A stretch of DNA of 64,000 nucleotides from Planomonospora sp. ID82291 (lineage in GTDB: Bacteria; Actinomycetota; Actinomycetes; Streptosporangiales; Streptosporangiaceae): positions 1,116,001-1,180,000 of the forward strand of contig NZ_JABTEX010000003.1 of NCBI RefSeq assembly GCF_015711645.1, given 5' to 3'. Under the pieces are notes generated by a model. It was not told the origin of the DNA, made no database searches, and was given only the letters and a program-made list of their open reading frames with translations. The position numbers and the translations under genes are program-made. Of the stretch, positions 4,112 to 24,215 are shown piece by piece; positions within the stretch are counted from its first letter, which is position 1, and the number at the start of each line of letters is the position of its first letter.

Positions 4112-4884
4112 GCGCCGCCATCGCGGACACGATGCGCTCGGAGTGGACCAAGTTCCGCTCGATCCCCTCCAACCTGCCCACGCTGCTGGCGACCGTCGCC
4201 GTCATGGTGGGCACGGGCGCGCTGACCGCCGACCGCGCGGCCGAAGGCCACCGGGCGGCGGGCGCCGCGTTCGACCCCGCCTACCTCAGCATGTACGGCG
4301 GGTTCCTGTTCGCGCAGATCAGCGTGGGCGCGCTCGGTGCGCTGGCGGTGACCTCCGAGTACGCCACCGGGATGATCCGCACGAGCCTGACCGCGGTGCC
4401 GCGGCGGGGACGGCTGCTGGCCGCCAAGATCGGAACGTTCGGCCTGATCGCCCTGGTCACCGGGGAGGCCGCGAGCTTCGGCTCGTTCCTCCTCGGCCAG
4501 ACCGTGATCGGCGCCGCCGGCGCTCCGGCCGCGGCACTCGGTGACGCCGGCGTCCTGCGCGCCGTCGTCGGCATGGGCCTGGTCTGGACCCTGGTGGGTC
4601 TCACCGGCGTGGCGCTGGGCTTCCTGCTGCGCGACACGATGGCCGCCACGACCGTGGTGGCGGTCGTCGACTTCGTCATCCCCATCATCGGACCCCGGCT
4701 CATGCCCGAAGCCGTGGGGGACTGGGTGAGCACGTACTGGCCGGTCGCGGCCGGTCTGCGGGTCGCCACCACCGTCCCCGACCCGGAACGGCTGGCTCCC
4801 TGGACGGGGTTCGGCCTGATGGCCGCCTGCACCGCCGTCCTGCTGGCGGCGGCCTTCGCGGTGTTCCGCTCGCGGGACGCCTGA
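4108..4884 (+). CDS. ABC-2 type exporter, membrane permease subunit
   Basis: This 258-residue membrane protein starts with the MRSEWTKFRSIPSN stretch typical of actinobacterial ABC-2 permeases. It has about six hydrophobic segments, including runs around residues 20-40, 60-85, 105-130, 150-175 and 225-255. It overlaps the ATPase gene by four bases (ATGA), so the two subunits are made together. It would form the export channel in the cytoplasmic membrane. The substrate is not indicated, and no dedicated regulator is adjacent. Transcription continues towards a convergent gene, with a decayed sbcC fragment in the gap. Confidence 0.9.
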   Translation: MSAAIADTMRSEWTKFRSIPSNLPTLLATVAVMVGTGALTADRAAEGHRAAGAAFDPAYLSMYGGFLFAQISVGALGALAVTSEYATGMIRTSLTAVPRRGRLLAAKIGTFGLIALVTGEAASFGSFLLGQTVIGAAGAPAAALGDAGVLRAVVGMGLVWTLVGLTGVALGFLLRDTMAATTVVAVVDFVIPIIGPRLMPEAVGDWVSTYWPVAAGLRVATTVPDPERLAPWTGFGLMAACTAVLLAAAFAVFRSRDA

Positions 4885-9700: not shown

Positions 9701-10543
9701 CTCGGTCCCCGGGAGCGCCGCCAGGACGCCGGGCTCCATCTCCGGGAGCACCGCGAGCGTCCCCGTCGCCGCTCCCGTCGCCGCTCCCGTCGCCGCCTCG
9801 GGGGACGCCTCCGGGGACGCCGCGGGGGCCGTCCCGGAGACCGCCGGCGCGGCGAGGGCGGCCAGGAGCCCGGGGCCCGCGGCCTCCTCGACGCGGTTGA
9901 CGACGGAGTCGACCTCCCGGCGCAGGGCCTGCTGGTCGCGGAAGGCCGCGGTCCGCCGGTCGGCGAGCCAGGACTCGGCGGCGGCGTAGACCTTCACCGA
10001 GAAGAGCCGTTCCAGGACCTTGCGCCGCTCCTCGCCGTCGGCGCGCAGGAAGTGCGCGAAATCACCCTGCGGCAACATCGCGACCTGGCAGAACTGGGCC
10101 AGGTTCATGCCGAGCAGGCCGCCGACGAGATCGCCCGCCTCGTCCATCCGGGTCGTCAGCCCCCGCCACTCCCCTGCGGGCGTCAGCTCCTCCAGCACCA
10201 CCTTGGCCTGTTCCAGGGTGGTGCCGGCGCCCTTTTTCTTGGGCCGCTGCCAGGCGGGCGAGCGGGTGACGCGCAGCCGGCGGCCCTGGACGGTGACCTC
10301 CAGGACGACGCGCGGGCCCCGGTCCGGCGGGGCGTGGTCGCAGCGCAGGCTGCGGGCGCTGTTGCGCTGGCCGGGCACCTGGCCGTAGAGCGCGAAGCAC
10401 AGGGCGTCCAGCACGGTGGTCTTGCCCGCGCCGGTGGAGCCGTGGATCAAAAACAGCCCGGCCTCGGCCAGGGCGTCGAAGTCGACCTCCTCCTCACCCG
10501 GGAAGGAGCCGAAGGCGGTGATCTGCAGACGGTGGGGGCGCAT
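6755..10543 (-). CDS. sbcC: Nuclease SbcCD subunit C (SMC-family ATPase)
   Basis: This 1262-residue protein is the ATPase partner of SbcD in the Mre11-Rad50-type complex that opens and trims hairpin and blocked DNA ends. It has Walker A GSTGAGKTT at 35-43 and two very long coiled-coil arms. A zinc-hook CAVC (C658, C661) lies at the midpoint, as expected for the hook. The LSGGEGF signature and the LFVDEGFGTLDED Walker B/D-loop lie near the C terminus. The ATG follows the sbcD stop directly with no spacer, so the two are coupled. The length is at the long end of the family. A fragment of its 3' region is duplicated at 4925-5052. Confidence 0.97.
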   Translation of the reverse strand: MRPHRLQITAFGSFPGEEEVDFDALAEAGLFLIHGSTGAGKTTVLDALCFALYGQVPGQRNSARSLRCDHAPPDRGPRVVLEVTVQGRRLRVTRSPAWQRPKKKGAGTTLEQAKVVLEELTPAGEWRGLTTRMDEAGDLVGGLLGMNLAQFCQVAMLPQGDFAHFLRADGEERRKVLERLFSVKVYAAAESWLADRRTAAFRDQQALRREVDSVVNRVEEAAGPGLLAALAAPAVSGTAPAASPEASPEAATGAATGAATGTLAVLPEMEPGVLAALPGTEAPEPSAAEHTAERIAEHTAEMRDVAAWVEDDPLGWAGALAGLAEEAAARAAAACAGSEAAARRARRLLEDGVALADRRRRHAEALARSRALQESAEERADLEAVLAEAARADRVLPLIREAEQRAETAAKARSLAADALNRATPLLEPDPRYGGARPAGPDRLTALERERLDEITRLEELRAEEPRLAALLRDRERAEAEIARLTGEQSAADARLAVLPGLRAEVEDRLTAARLDAARLPAAEEARDAAARFAELEADLARLDTRLRDLAGQEAALAEARRGLPAALEEAAARLAAVRAEAAGIPAARTAVRAAAAVRDAVRRRDGLEVRLEAAHRARNEAVDRAQESRDRLQGVRQARIDGMAAELAARLVPGDPCAVCGSPDHPAPAAPADAAPTPDDERAAESAYEAALKRRQDAESTVADLASRLDETLAAAGGLTAGQAEESLAAAERELAALTEAAAGEPGLAAETDRITAELEDVRARAEEVSGLLAETRARREGAGAEQARLAVRLRAARDAARDTARDAARDTVGDGDGIAAGDAGDAAGDGGPGAGGEGSESSAGRAAEALRRAERALEGLRESAGAVPGLEAEAERLAAELEELRERSRELAVALSARRANLEKVTADIGLLTARLDAARGQDPTLAARLERLADEAGLLREAAEATRRERDAEDELETARVRAAAGAAEAGFAGIEDARAAARPAAEQEEKADRLRALDRERAAVDARLADPELIAAAAEPEPDLAGLESARDAAGAAHAALLSVADRAGRRRDRLAALRAELAGCLERWRPAAERHRIAESLAALTSGNSADNQWSMRLSSYVLGERLRQVVASANERLDHMSGGRYLLQHDLRRAAGDRSRSGGGLGLRILDGWTGVDRDPATLSGGEGFITSLALALGLADVVTAEAGGVELGTLFVDEGFGTLDEDTLDGVLDILDGLRDGGRAVGIVSHVGELRTRIPARLHVRKERHGSTIHQ

Positions 10544-18684: not shown

Positions 18685-18873
18685 GACCGAATCTTATTCC
18701 AGTTCAAATGTCTGGATTAATCGGGATGTTTTTCTGATGTGTTCACGCGCTCTTCGCCTGCCCGACCTGCCCTTCCGCCTACCATCTCCTGTGCGGCGCA
18801 CGAGTGCACGAGCCCGCGGACGCGGAGCGCGCGCCGCACGGCGGGTGCGGAGAGTGCGGGAAACGGGGAGCAG

Positions 18874-20358
18874 GTGCGGGACAGATCACAGCCGCCCGGG
18901 ATCGGCGCGGTCATCGGGTGGACGGCGCTGTCGGTCATCGCGCCGGGGGCCGCGCACCTGCGCGCGGGCTGGCGCCGGACCGGACTGGCGCTGCTCTCGC
19001 TGTACGCCGCGGTACTGCTCGCGCTGCTGTGGGTCGGGCTCACCTCCGACCTCGGCGGCCTCGCCGGGCGGCTGCTGGCGTCGTCCTGGCTGACGGGCGT
19101 CACCGTGATCTCGCTCGCCCTGGGGGTCGCCTGGTTCGCGCTGGTCGTGCACTCCTTCACGGTGCTGAACCCCGGCACGCTGCCGGCCGCCGGGCAGGCC
19201 GCCGCCGGGACGGTCGCCGGCGTGCTCGCGGTGGCGGTGCTGCTGCCGTTCGGGTTCGTCGGGCAGTACGCCGCGGTCTCCCAGACCGCGATCGAGGGCG
19301 TCTTCACCGCCCCCGCCGCGACGATGCCCGCCGAACGCGAACAGGACCCGTGGGCGGGCCGCGGCCGGGTGAACATCCTGCTGCTCGGCGGCGACGCCGA
19401 CGACCACCGGCCCGGAGTGCGCACCGACAGCATCAACGTGGCCAGCGTCGACGTGCGCACCGGCAACACCGTCCTGCTCAGCCTCCCGCGCAACCTGGAG
19501 AACGTCCGGTTCGTGCCGGGCAGCCCGATGGCCAGGCGGTTCCCGAACGGCTTCCGGCTCCCGGTCGGGCCCGGAGGCGGGCGCGAGGACCTGCTGTTCG
19601 CGGTCTGGGAGTACGCCGACGCCCACCCGGAGATCTTCGGCGGCCGGAAGGGGCAGGGCGCCCGGGTCCTGATCGACACCGTCGGCTACACGCTCGGGTT
19701 GAAGATCGACTGGTACGCCCTGGTGAACATGTGGGGCTTCGCCCGCCTCATCGACGCGCTCGGCGGCGTGACGATCACCGTGCCGCACGACGTGGTGTTC
19801 GGCAAGTACAACGAGGGCGTGGTCAAGGCGGGCCGGCGCAGGCTCGGGGGCGCCGACGCGATGTGGTTCGCCCGCTCGCGCACCTACAGCGACGACTTCA
19901 GCCGGATGGGCCGCCAGCGCTGCGTGCTCGGCGCCATCCTGCAGCAGGCCGACCCGGCGACCGTGCTGGCCCGGTTCAACCAGGTGGCGCTGGCCACCCG
20001 GGAGCTGATCAGGACCGACATCCCGCGCCCGATGCTGGAGCACCTGGTCCCGCTGGCGCTGAAGGTCAAGGGCGCCAAGGTGACCAGCGTGCAGTTCGTG
20101 CCGCCGCTGATCAACACCGGCTACCCCGACTGGACGAAGATCCGCGCGGTCACCGCCAAGGCCGTCCGGGCCTCGGCCGCCACTCCCCGGCCGTCCGCCA
20201 CACCGGCCGCCACACCCGCCGCCACTCTGGCCGCCACCCCGACCGTCACACCGAGCGTCTCCGCGCCCGCCGAGGCCGTCGCGAAACCGACCGCCAAGCC
20301 GACCGCCAAGCCGGCGGACCCCACCGCGCCCAAGGGCATCACCGACGGCTGCGGCTGA
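18874..20358 (+). CDS. LytR-CpsA-Psr (LCP) family cell-wall protein
   Basis: This predicted 494-residue protein has several N-terminal membrane segments (about 12-125) and then the extracytoplasmic LCP domain, with VNILLLGGDAD, RTDSINVASVD, SLPRNLENV, IDALGGVTI and the ARSRTYSDDFSRMGRQ motif. The C terminus is a Thr/Pro/Ala-rich tail of about 55 residues. LCP proteins transfer glycopolymers from lipid carriers to peptidoglycan. More than one N-terminal TM segment is unusual but is seen in actinobacteria. I chose the GTG at 18874, behind GGGGAG at a short spacing; other starts up to 18739 are open. The stop lies directly before the inverted-repeat element. Confidence 0.9.
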   Translation: MRDRSQPPGIGAVIGWTALSVIAPGAAHLRAGWRRTGLALLSLYAAVLLALLWVGLTSDLGGLAGRLLASSWLTGVTVISLALGVAWFALVVHSFTVLNPGTLPAAGQAAAGTVAGVLAVAVLLPFGFVGQYAAVSQTAIEGVFTAPAATMPAEREQDPWAGRGRVNILLLGGDADDHRPGVRTDSINVASVDVRTGNTVLLSLPRNLENVRFVPGSPMARRFPNGFRLPVGPGGGREDLLFAVWEYADAHPEIFGGRKGQGARVLIDTVGYTLGLKIDWYALVNMWGFARLIDALGGVTITVPHDVVFGKYNEGVVKAGRRRLGGADAMWFARSRTYSDDFSRMGRQRCVLGAILQQADPATVLARFNQVALATRELIRTDIPRPMLEHLVPLALKVKGAKVTSVQFVPPLINTGYPDWTKIRAVTAKAVRASAATPRPSATPAATPAATLAATPTVTPSVSAPAEAVAKPTAKPTAKPADPTAPKGITDGCG

Positions 20359-20366
20359 GTGCCGTT

Positions 20367-20843
20367 GGTGGGGTGTTCTGCGGCGGGTCCCGCTCATGCG
20401 GTGGCGGGTGGGGGCTGCGGTGGTTCGGCCGGGTCCCGCTCATGCGGTGGCGGGTGGGGGCTGCGGTGGTTCGGCCGGGTCCCGCTCATGCGGTGGCGGG
20501 TGGGGGCTGCGGTGGTTCGGCCGGGTCCCGCTCATGCGGTGGCGAGTGGGGGTGCGCACTGCGGCGGGCCGGTGGTCCTGGCGGCCGTCGCAGCCGAGCT
20601 CTGGTGGTCTCGGCCTCCGGCCGGGGCGGGCGCGCGGGGTTCGGGCCCTTATACGCCGCCAGGACCACCGGCCCGCCTCCGTGCACCGCTGCTCCGCCGT
20701 ACCGATGCGGGCCGTAGCGTCTCGCTCTCCGGCCGCCCGGCGTTCCCGCCGCCGCTGAAGCGATCCGTCCGGGACCGCTCGGGCGGACCGCCGCAGCTGA
20801 AGCCACCCCCGGCGGAAAGGAGCTCAGGGCCGGGCACCGTAAG
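20367..20843. repeat. Left long inverted-repeat arm
   Basis: This is the left arm of the element. Its inner edge (the AAG at 20841-20843) pairs with CTT at 21345-21347, and the next bases no longer match. It contains the 46-bp array and a perfect 23-bp internal inverted repeat (20563-20585 with 20655-20677, loop about 69 bp). It has no convincing gene of its own; open frames there differ between strands and arms. Confidence 0.85.
20385..20560. repeat. 46-bp tandem repeat array, about 3.8 copies
   Basis: The units start at 20385, 20431, 20477 and 20523, each opening with GGGTCCCGCTCATGCGGTGG. The first three are nearly identical and the fourth diverges. The right arm of the element has only about two copies in inverted orientation (about 21647-21724), so copy number differs between the arms. 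There are no unique spacers, so this is not a CRISPR array. Confidence 0.9.
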
Positions 20844-20969
20844 CCCTGCGAGCTTCCTGCATGCAAGATGTCCACGACGCGATGGGCCGTCACTCTCAAC
20901 CGAGCCGTACGGCGCTGCGGGCCGCGAACCGGATGGAAAGTGGATCTTCCTTCTGCGAGAGGGCGGGAT

Positions 20970-21337
20970 ATGGGAAGCAGCAAGGGCACCAGGGAACTGG
21001 AGCGGGCGTTACGGGCGGGCAAGCCGGTCGGGGTGCGGCGGGTGATCCGTTGCCGGATGTCGATCCCGACTCCACCGCCCGGCTGATCGAAACCATGGCA
21101 GAGGCGTTTCCTCTGCTGGGGCTGACGTTCGAGGAGATCGACCCCGATGCCCTCTTCATCGGCCGCGCGCGGGGGATCGCTTCGAAGAAGAAGGTCCGCC
21201 TCCAGCAGATCGACTCCCGAGCCGCTTGGGACGGCTTGTGCACCATGCACAGGATCGGCGACATCACCCGGCTGGATGCCGGTGACGGCTACCTGGAAGC
21301 ACTGCATCTGGTCGGAGGAGATCCGCGCGACCGGTGA
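20970..21337 (+). pseudogene. Unrecognised small cargo gene, probably frameshifted
   Basis: An ATG at 20970 has a purine-rich GAGAGGGCGGG just upstream and opens MGSSKGTRELERALRAGKPVG, but this frame stops at 21086. Another frame continues as DPLPDVDPDSTARLIETMAE and runs to 21337, giving a well-formed, less biased protein with AEAFPLLGLTFEEIDPDALF and GRARGIASKKKVRLQQID. One extra G in the GGGG run at 21030-21033 would join the two into about 122 residues. An alternative is a TTG start at about 21050. The base composition is visibly less GC-rich than the arms. I do not recognise the family. It lies wholly inside the inverted-repeat element. Confidence 0.55.
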
Positions 21338-21344
21338 ACCGCAC

Positions 21345-21724
21345 CTTGCGGCGCCCGGCCCTGAGCTCCTTTCCGCCGGGGTGGCTTCAGCTGCGGCGAT
21401 CCGCCCGAGCGGTCCCGGACGGATCGCTTCAGCGGCGGCGGGAACGCCGGGCGGCCGGAGAGCGAGCCGCTACGGCCCGCATCGGTACGGCGGAGCAGCA
21501 GTGCACGGAGGCGGGCCGGTGGTCCTGGCGGCGTATAAGGGCCCGAACCCCGCGCGCCCGCCCCGGCCGGAGGCCGAAACCACCGGACCTCGGCTGCGAC
21601 GGCCGCCAGGACCACCGGCCCGCCGCAGTGCGCACCCACACCCGCCGCCGAATGAGCGGGACCCGGCCGGACCACCGCAGCCCCCCGCCACCGCATGAGC
21701 GGGACCCGGCCGAACCACCGCAGC
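21345..21724. repeat. Right long inverted-repeat arm
   Basis: This is the reverse complement of the left arm but shorter by about two 46-bp units. It carries the same nested 23-bp hairpin. Differences from the left arm are scattered single bases and one 1-bp deletion, so the arms are either recently duplicated or kept alike by gene conversion. It ends at the GTGCCGTT octamer beside the stop of the enolase-superfamily gene. Confidence 0.85.
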
Positions 21725-21731
21725 GTGCCGT

Positions 21732-22736
21732 TCAGACGCGGTGGGACTGCTTGGCCAGCCGGCGGACGCGCTCCTCGTCGATGGCGTGCCCCAGACCGGG
21801 CTGGGTCAGCGGAACGGCCACCACGCCGCCGGAGGCGCCGACCGGAGGGGTGACGATCTGGGTGCTGCGCGGCGGTTCGGCCACGTCGCAGGGGAGGCTG
21901 CACCCAGGCAGGCTGGCCGCGGCGACGGTGGCCGCCCGGGCCAGGCCCGTGCCCTGCCCTCCGGCGCAGGCGACCTCCCAGCCGGCCGCCACGGCGCCGT
22001 CGTGCACCCGCCGCACGCTCCGCAGGGAGCCCAGCGCGGCGGGGCGGAGCAGCAGCGCGCGGCCCGCGCCCGCGGCGACCGCCTCGTCCAGCTCCCGCTC
22101 CGAGGCCACCTCCAGCAGCACCGGGGCGGCCACCCGCTCCTGCAGGTCGGCGTGGTCGGACAGGTCGGTGAACGGGCGCTCGATCACGGAGGGCGCGTAG
22201 GCGTCCAGCGCCGCCAGGGCCTCGACGTCGGTGTAGGCGGAGCGCGCGTCCAGGCCGATGCCCAGGGCCGGGTAGGCCTGGCGGACGGCGCGCAGCGGCT
22301 CGATGTCCCAGCCGGGGTGGACGTCCATGGTGATGTGCGCGTACCCGGCGCAGACGTGCCGGTTGACCCGGGCGACCAGGCTCTCCAGGTTGCGCTCGGC
22401 GCCGATCCTGACGGTGGCCGTCAGCGAGGTGCGGCTGCCGCCGAGGGCGTGGGCCAGCGGGACGCCGCGCATCCGGGCCCACAGGTCCCAGCAGGCCATG
22501 TCGGCGGCCGGGCCGCCGGGGATCTCACCGAGGTCGTCCGGATGCTCCCAGTCGGCGCCGACCAGCTCCCCGGCCAGCCGCTCCACCAGGGCGGGCCAGG
22601 TCCCGGGACCGGGATCGACGACCTCCCCCCAGCCGGTCATGCCCCCGTAGTCGGTGAGCCGGACGAGGATGCTCTCCGGCCGCCTGCCGTACGGCAGGAC
22701 CAGCCGGTACACCTCCAGCTCGCACACGCGTGGCAT
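21732..22736 (-). CDS. Enolase-superfamily protein (MenC/NSAR-like) lacking catalytic lysines
   Basis: This 334-residue protein aligns by eye throughout with o-succinylbenzoate synthase/N-acylamino-acid racemase: PGWDIEPLRAVRQAYP, LDARSAYT, VIERPF, and AGWEVACAGGQGTGLARAA near the C terminus. The metal ligands D163 and E186 are kept. The catalytic KxK becomes T136/D138, the opposite lysine becomes R231, and the third metal ligand becomes E209. Standard racemase or OSBS chemistry therefore looks impossible. It may be a non-catalytic paralogue or have new chemistry. The ATG at 22736 follows AGGGGAG. Its stop abuts the inverted-repeat element. Confidence 0.85.
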   Translation of the reverse strand: MPRVCELEVYRLVLPYGRRPESILVRLTDYGGMTGWGEVVDPGPGTWPALVERLAGELVGADWEHPDDLGEIPGGPAADMACWDLWARMRGVPLAHALGGSRTSLTATVRIGAERNLESLVARVNRHVCAGYAHITMDVHPGWDIEPLRAVRQAYPALGIGLDARSAYTDVEALAALDAYAPSVIERPFTDLSDHADLQERVAAPVLLEVASERELDEAVAAGAGRALLLRPAALGSLRSVRRVHDGAVAAGWEVACAGGQGTGLARAATVAAASLPGCSLPCDVAEPPRSTQIVTPPVGASGGVVAVPLTQPGLGHAIDEERVRRLAKQSHRV

Positions 22737-22856
22737 GAACTCCCCTTGGTCTTCCCGTGCCGGTGAACGCGGACCCCGCCCGGAGGCGGGACCCACCCTT
22801 CAACGTGAGGAAGAGGCACGTTCTTCCCATGGTGCCATGCCGCCGGCATGCCCCCG

Positions 22857-24215
22857 TCAGGTCCGGACCCGGCCCGCGACGAGCGTGCCGGTGACCGCCA
22901 CCAGCGCCGTCAGCGCGAAACAGGCCAGGTAGACGGGGCCCGCCGCGCCGAAGGCCGCGACGATCGCGCCGACCGCGGCGACCGTCATCACCGTGAAGGC
23001 CGACTCCCCGACGCCCATCGAGGCGCTGTTCTCGCCCTCCTCCCCCGGCGCGGACAGCTCCAGGACGAGCACCGAGAGCGTGGGGTAGACGCTGCCGATC
23101 CCGAGGCCCATGACGATCTCCCCGGCGAAGGCGAAGGCGACCGGGACCTCCGGGAACACGGTCAGCGCCATCATCAGCAGCCCCGCCGCGATCAGCAGCG
23201 GACCGGTCCGCAGGATCAGGACCCGGTCGTACGGCCTGCGCCCGACGATCCAGGAGGCGAGCGACCAGGCGAGCGCGCCGCCGGTGAGCACCGTGCCGGC
23301 CATGGCCGGGGAGAGGCCGCGCTCCTGGGTGAGCATCAGCGGCAGGTACACCTCGCCGCCGAAGACGGTGCCGGCCGCGATCCCGCGCAGCACGATCACC
23401 GTGGGCAGGCCGCGCCCGGCGCGCAGCGTGCCCGGCGGGAGCAACTTGACCAGGGCCGGGACCAGCGCGGCCAGTCCGGCCGCCAGGAGGAGCACGCCCG
23501 CCCCGCGCGCCGCCCCGCCGTACTGCGTGAGCGCCGCGCCCGCGGCGGCCAGCACCGCCCAGCCGAACCTGCGGGCGATCGGCGTCCGTTCCGCGGACCC
23601 GGTGCGCTCCGCCTGCCCGCCGTCCGGGACGGCGGCCAGGCCGCGCCAGAGCAGCAGCGCGGCGGGGGCGACCAGCAGCGGCACGCCGAGGAAGACCCAG
23701 CGCCAGCCGAGCTGCTCGACCACCACTCCGGTGATCGCCGGCCCGACCATGGAGGGCACCACCCAGGCCCCGGCGAAGACCGAGAACACCTTCGGGTGCG
23801 TCTCGGCGGGGTAGACCCGGGAGACCAGCACGTACAGCGCCACCTGGAAGAGGCCGCCGCCGAAGCCCTGCACGAACCGGCCCAGCACGAACACGTCCAT
23901 GGTGGGCGCCGTCCCGGCCAGCAGGAGTCCCGCGACGAAGGCCGCCACGCCCGTCCAGAGCGGGACCACCGGCCCGCGCAGGTCGCCCCAGCGCCCGCCC
24001 AGCACGGTGGCGGTCATCCCCGCGGCCAGCGCCCCGCTGAAGGCCAGCGCGTACAGCCCGAGCCCGTCGAGCTCGCGCCCGACCACCGGCATCGCGGTCG
24101 CCACCGCCAGCGCCTCGAAGGCGACCAGCACGATCAGGGCCACCATGCCGATCGTCACCGCGCGGTGGCGCCGCGCGAATATCCCCGAAGGGGGTTGCAG
24201 AACCGTCGTCGTCAT
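22857..24215 (-). CDS. MFS transporter (12-TM type)
   Basis: This 452-residue membrane protein has about 12 hydrophobic segments. It has the MFS loop 2-3 motif (GGRWGDLRGP) and a GRFVQGFGGGLFQVALYVLV segment in TM4-5. It resembles drug or small-molecule exporters of the DHA group. It starts 48 bp after the TetR gene on the same strand, so the two are probably cotranscribed and under the same repressor. A second MFS gene of a different type diverges on the other side of TetR, giving one regulator and two pumps. Confidence 0.9.
   Translation of the reverse strand: MTTTVLQPPSGIFARRHRAVTIGMVALIVLVAFEALAVATAMPVVGRELDGLGLYALAFSGALAAGMTATVLGGRWGDLRGPVVPLWTGVAAFVAGLLLAGTAPTMDVFVLGRFVQGFGGGLFQVALYVLVSRVYPAETHPKVFSVFAGAWVVPSMVGPAITGVVVEQLGWRWVFLGVPLLVAPAALLLWRGLAAVPDGGQAERTGSAERTPIARRFGWAVLAAAGAALTQYGGAARGAGVLLLAAGLAALVPALVKLLPPGTLRAGRGLPTVIVLRGIAAGTVFGGEVYLPLMLTQERGLSPAMAGTVLTGGALAWSLASWIVGRRPYDRVLILRTGPLLIAAGLLMMALTVFPEVPVAFAFAGEIVMGLGIGSVYPTLSVLVLELSAPGEEGENSASMGVGESAFTVMTVAAVGAIVAAFGAAGPVYLACFALTALVAVTGTLVAGRVRT

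Follow-up and report, generated by a model that had tools for sequence, protein, structure and literature searches.

The element at positions 20359 to 21732 of the window, by which we mean the whole stretch of 64,000 nucleotides analysed from the genome of Planomonospora sp. ID82291 (G000), is best explained, with a probability of about 55%, as one ancient arm-bounded accessory-gene 'bay', homogenised per genome and reshuffled by recombination between arms, and not as an ordinary transposon. In such a bay, a chromosomal interval lying between two convergent genes at their 3' ends, a pair of inverted arms would enclose the accessory genes; reading inwards from a stop codon, each arm has outer tandem repeats, a hairpin (P) and an inner block (Q), followed by the cargo. 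Across Streptosporangiaceae the arms make up a single repeat family, in which pairs face inward, and the cargo can be inverted, gained or lost while the flanks stay collinear, inversion and turnover having been seen between species only, with one genome compared per species.

In the window, the arms at 20367-20843 and 21345-21724 are inverted repeats whose 290-bp cores are 97.2% identical. An ungapped block of 315 bp (20495-20809 versus 21378-21692) is 96% complementary, the pairing extends inward at 20807-20843 and 21345-21381 (95%), and the left outer tandem repeats include three overlapping 77-nt copies (99-100%). The GC content reaches 77-78% in the arms, falls to 66% in the 501-bp centre and averages 75% over the whole window. 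An earlier sequence-only reading had described near-identical arms around a centre of lower GC, the octamer GTGCCGTT abutting both ends and an exact fit between two convergent stop codons, and each of these was confirmed: the TGA of the left gene ends at 20358, while position 21732, the last base of the right octamer, also begins the stop codon of the right gene (TCA), giving an overlap of one base. Chance pairing of the arms is far surpassed, because the arm family recurs at more than 100 other places. The features of the locus are as follows:

18739-20358, + strand: left flanking gene, ORF of 539 aa reading towards the element, its stop being the left border; orthologue beside an empty or differently filled site in relatives
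20359-20366, + strand: octamer GTGCCGTT, left copy; possible, unconfirmed target duplication
20367-20554, + strand: left outer arm, about four locus-specific 46-bp tandem units (repeat comparison, alignment)
20555-20690, + strand: left module P, hairpin of ~130 nt with a long terminal stem (HMM match 20555-20842; MFE -102 kcal/mol as RNA; stem covarying across 33 arms)
20691-20843, + strand: left module Q, inner conserved block with motifs GCTGAAGC / GCCGTAGC and inner-end motif AAAGGAGCTCAGGGCCGGGC (arm profile)
20861-21337, + strand: cargo, degraded copy of a protein of roughly 150-200 aa (homologues in P. parontospora, L079, and 12 other genomes)
21345-21497, - strand: right module Q (HMM match 21632-21346)
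21498-21632, - strand: right module P hairpin (HMM match 21632-21346; covariation)
21633-21724, - strand: right outer arm, two tandem units of ~41-43 bp (repeat comparison, alignment)
21725-21732, + strand: octamer GTGCCGTT, right copy, its last base in the right gene's stop codon
21732-22796, - strand: right flanking gene, ORF of 354 aa reading towards the element

The small cargo gene proposed earlier is present as an ORF but in damaged form: compared with the intact frame in Planomonospora parontospora JCM 3093 (G001), its middle part is deleted and its frame shifted. The 12 other genomes with homologues belong to the same family, and the comparison suggests that the window cargo is a decayed gene lying between arms that are still near-identical.

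The arms were located by similarity searches, which short solo hairpins could escape, with a profile of 292 positions built from 47 arms. The arm consensus gave more than 100 matches, in 11 of the 12 chosen genomes, and the structured arm of ~290 bp recurs in Planomonospora, Planobispora, Streptosporangium and a fourth genus; as the sequence-only reading had suggested looking for, the same arm family stands at other loci of relatives with different contents. The genomes analysed include Planobispora longispora (G044), P. siamensis (G087), P. rosea (G133), Streptosporangium minutum (G071) and a complete genome, G123. An exact inner-motif pattern matched only Planobispora, Planomonospora and Streptosporangium in the named genome collection, and the order-wide search returned strong arm matches only in these three genera and g58, with weaker, mostly P-only matches, some of them inward pairs, in six more genera of the family. 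The complete genome G123 has 6 inward pairs, 0.5-9 kb apart, and 14 solo arms (14 of 26), and one locus elsewhere (L158) is a cargo-free pair with a 70-bp spacer. G000 itself carries about a dozen arm matches, those beyond the window lying on contig C7, mostly as inverted pairs, and where contigs C8 and C10 break off; a genome-wide terminator family was rejected on this count. The arms were not found in plasmid and phage collections, Rfam gave no match above the gathering score for 19000-23000, and no paper describing such arms was found in the open-access literature.

Two modules make up the arm profile: P (positions 1-132), a long hairpin, and Q (133-292), the inner block. In the P stem, 96% of cells are paired, compared with 84% after shuffling, and 15 of 27 pairs have changes on both sides; sliding the P partner by 1-3 columns abolishes the pairing signal. 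P shows no clear T-run. The modules are separable, P standing alone at the ParB site of G001 (L078) and mainly Q being present in L011, and the outer repeats are locus-specific but common to both arms of one locus. Another hairpin, R, with a perfect 23-bp stem, exists in about eight copies in G123, seven of which continue arms at their inner end. Just inside the right arm of another G000 locus (L008:6463-6530; G000:C7:1756981-1757043) lies a perfect hairpin with a ~30-bp stem, CTCGTTGATGTTGTCGATATGGC..., which has a near copy at G000:C8:1002842-1002904 and is possibly the Planomonospora counterpart of R. The earlier idea that the whole element folds as one giant hairpin acting on both neighbours survives in part, since every arm contains a covarying hairpin of its own, situated 3' of a gene.

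Of the 75 arms scored, 65 follow the 3' end of the gene on their outer side, with the outer end pointing to that gene's stop (p = 2.6e-11 against one half, with arms at orthologous sites not fully independent), and the other 10 break this rule. Where the flanks of an arm pair could be called, the two genes are mostly convergent; convergent neighbours account for 9 of the 40 adjacent gene pairs in the window. Genes were called with our own GC3-based caller, and statements on orientation and site rest on these calls plus flank DNA alignment. That fixed orientation, together with the covarying hairpin, the solo arms, the occurrence of R at seven inner arm ends in G123 and a cargo without arms in G095 (see below), is what one would expect if the arms were mere 3'-end structures (terminators, insulators or mRNA stabilisers) that each of the two convergent genes had acquired separately, with bystander genes between. 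We consider that reading improbable, given that most genes have no such arm, that arm-bounded loci coincide with cargo turnover and inversion, and that the two arms of a locus have locus-specific outer repeats in common and are closer to each other than to the genome's other arms, which is unexpected for independent additions.

At least five convergent sites are common to several genera. Site A, flanked by genes that we take to be VanW-like and PQQ-dehydrogenase-like, is occupied in Streptosporangium, Planobispora and g58 with differing cargos, and sites B to E recur likewise. Different accessory content at an orthologous site, the criterion for a hotspot of horizontal gene transfer (HGT), was found at sites A-E, at the ArsC/PP2C site and at the window site. 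The arms nevertheless group by genome and not by site. In a tree of 66 arms, all 18 arms of G123 form one clade (support 98), genome labels require 11 changes compared with 35 when shuffled, and site labels require 22; forcing the site-A arms into one clade was rejected (p-AU = 1.9e-47). Arm identity is 0.93 within pairs, 0.84 within a genome, 0.75 within a genus and 0.70 between genera. The pattern is one of concerted evolution within genomes, or else of the same sites being re-seeded repeatedly.

These data also bear on the suggestion of the sequence-only reading that the locus is a non-autonomous mobile element, of which the multi-copy occurrence at other loci with other contents stood, and to which the inside-out anatomy and the lack of a transposase in the examined cargos are opposed. 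In its fullest form, this alternative is a non-autonomous transposon with very long terminal repeats, of the foldback or Pack-MULE kind, mobilised in trans, making an 8-bp target duplication and carrying captured host DNA. We regard it as unlikely, though it would account for the octamer at both window ends, for a multi-copy family with varied contents, for the same element at unrelated sites (several loci per genome) with empty sites in relatives, and for a SnoaL-like cargo that, with its arms, adjoins different flanking genes in G044 and G133; long terminal repeats are, moreover, typical of plant MULEs (PMC3310237). Against it, identical sites are reused in several genera, arms that have both site and cargo in common still group with their own genome, the outer termini are variable locus-specific tandem repeats, conservation being confined to the edge on the cargo side, and no transposase occurs among the cargo proteins tested.

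The interpretation of GTGCCGTT as a target-site duplication fared poorly beyond the window. At the ends of 16 other convergent pairs, direct repeats did not exceed a null of mismatched left and right ends, with the exception of one palindrome of 17 nt (L009) that recurs elsewhere nearby; an end repeat of 9 nt (L085) falls within the null range. Target-site duplication was accordingly rejected as a general feature. It may still apply at the window locus alone, because none of 272 mismatched left/right ends gave an exact match at both boundaries.

The cargos are unrelated and ordinary, and include WD40, LysE, PNPOx-like, SnoaL-like, PARG, GDPD, HAD and ketosynthase proteins, as well as luciferase-like, epoxide hydrolase, BTAD regulator and other proteins; one of them gives a DUF3800 match that is borderline, scoring under the cut-off. 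Neither a transposase nor a recombinase was found in the cargo proteins scanned, and no autonomous partner with matching ends among the cargos examined. An anti-phage or defence-island reading of the cargo found no support, PADLOC having given only ATPase-type matches for an ABC-F-like protein. Beside one solo arm (L151), there is what we read from the ORFs, and not from a profile match, as an IS3-like pair.

Turnover is evident within a single genus, as all six G000 sites differ in G001. The window site of G001 contains a 146-bp palindrome (TGA-ACGGC...GCCGTTCA), and in four other genomes nothing but a short spacer separates the window flanks. The expectation of an empty site carrying one GTGCCGTT was thus realised in part: relatives have the same convergent genes with nothing or a palindrome between, but the nearest one lacks the single octamer. 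At the ParB site, G001 has a lone P hairpin flanked on either side by outer repeats (outer-P-outer'); at the L010 site, another gene inside 56-bp inverted repeats; at the ArsC/PP2C site, an 86-bp gap; and at the ABC-F site, two extra genes, the left arm being undetectable. At a site between genes that we take to encode a glycosyltransferase and a flotillin, the right arm is lost in G001, and a 1.1-kb segment is absent (or was added in G000) exactly at the inner edge of the left arm. In G071 and G142 (L113, L114), the window site holds insertions of 5.3 kb and 13.7 kb with no detectable arms. Around the ParB gene, repeated GTGTTTCACGTGAAACAC palindromes (L009:1855-1881, 4248-4365) look to us like parS sites.

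Inversion was seen at site A, where G006 (L064) carries the GDPD-like gene in the opposite orientation to G123 (L060) with both flanks collinear, the one case in which both flanks were confirmed. G158 (L166) has the G006 orientation of this gene, with a homologous arm-plus-gene block at the opposite flank, and, judged against the one shared flank, the HAD gene has opposite orientations in L008 and L068. Arms can be gained or lost at a site independently of the cargo, because at the ArsC/PP2C site G095 has a 365-aa cargo gene similar to that of Planobispora but without arms.

Recombination and mutual conversion are to be expected between inverted repeats that are long and near-identical. Such exchange is documented for a yeast flip/flop locus (PMC9731477), and template switching offers another route (PMC8604942). 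For the bays, we propose that gene conversion or template switching keeps the arms alike and that recombination between arms reshuffles the cargo. Pairing of the arms as inverted repeats would flip the cargo. Because P is itself a palindrome, its left and right copies are also direct repeats, and recombination between them could remove the cargo so that only a single hairpin remains. G001 shows this state at its ParB site, although there it may be ancestral and not an excision product. Run in reverse, the same reaction would dock a segment that bears P. Situated immediately 3' of each flanking gene, P would serve as its terminator, and because of this the bay would be transcriptionally insulated and insertions tolerated. 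A bolder version, which we hold to be doubtful, is that Streptosporangiaceae carry a dedicated docking system made up of many ancient intergenic bays with structured, palindrome-bearing arms interchangeable throughout the genome, by which any arm-bounded gene could be docked, flipped, transferred from bay to bay or ejected by recombination without a transposase or integrase of its own.

The inner edge of the arms invites yet another explanation, namely a site-specific cassette system in which some recombinase joins the cargo at the inner edge of Q or at hairpin R. Similarity between the arms of a genome often ends at the same inner motif or within ~100 bp of it, and at the glycosyltransferase/flotillin site the inner edge of the G001 arm abuts sequence that lies 1.1 kb further in within G000. 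We give this explanation a slim chance, as the inner edges are ragged by tens of bases among arms of one genome and no shared recombinase turned up in the cargos scanned. Least probable by far is a REPIN-like population maintained by a Y1/RAYT transposase: the arms resemble REPINs as extragenic palindromes in species-specific populations (PMC8049555), but P measures ~130 nt compared with 20-40 bp for REP, and Y1_Tnp (PF01797) is absent from the arm-bearing G001, G044 and G112, on which ground this candidate was rejected.

Arm-bounded bays can be set beside several known systems. As in HGT hotspots (Oliveira et al. 2017), gene turnover is fast at fixed sites between core genes; many hotspots have no recognisable mobile element and homologous recombination is implicated, and specific inverted hairpin-rich repeats of ~0.3-0.5 kb, such as those at the bay borders, do not appear in the abstract of that study (PMC5635113). 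The Saccharomyces flip/flop region (Salzberg et al. 2022) likewise lies between inverted repeats homogenised within species, and its segment has been re-inverted repeatedly; it is a single yeast locus with gene-bearing 4-kb repeats (PMC9731477), whereas bays occupy many bacterial loci and have non-coding structured arms and variable cargo. REP and REPIN sequences (PMC3116915, PMC8049555) are also extragenic palindromes in within-genome populations, but the arms are much longer, paired around cargo and placed 3' of genes, with no obligatory Y1 transposase. MULEs and Pack-MULEs share long inverted ends with the bays (PMC3310237). Bays differ from foldback elements and MULEs in that the conserved edge is the inner one, target duplication is not general, orthologous sites recur and the arms evolve in concert by genome. 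Foldback elements, for their part, have long inverted ends with tandem repeats and a variable centre, which is the likeness to bays.

HGT hotspots without mobile elements are common and their mechanism is usually obscure; bays are hotspots marked by one recognisable structured repeat, orthologous over several genera and homogenised per genome, and a specific structured arm family marking such hotspots appears to be new. They allow a direct test of what flanking repeats contribute to gene docking and supply a list of accessory-gene sites in antibiotic-producing actinomycetes. The arms also explain why assemblies break at bays: in G000, the end of C8 (L013) and the start of C10 (L012) are breaks inside arms, next to genes that we take to be ArsC-like and PP2C-like. 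Because these flanks are adjacent in P. parontospora, the two contigs probably join at the ArsC/PP2C site; their ends look like the two sides of one further element. In G123, a second, different inverted repeat of 118 bp (79%; L137:6321-6436 and 10129-10243) surrounds a solo-arm region. In genus g65 (L156, L157, L161), a gene block of about 6 kb lies inside inverted P-type arms of 140-190 bp that are 95-100% identical, and this bracketed block is kept in three species, with non-convergent flanks.
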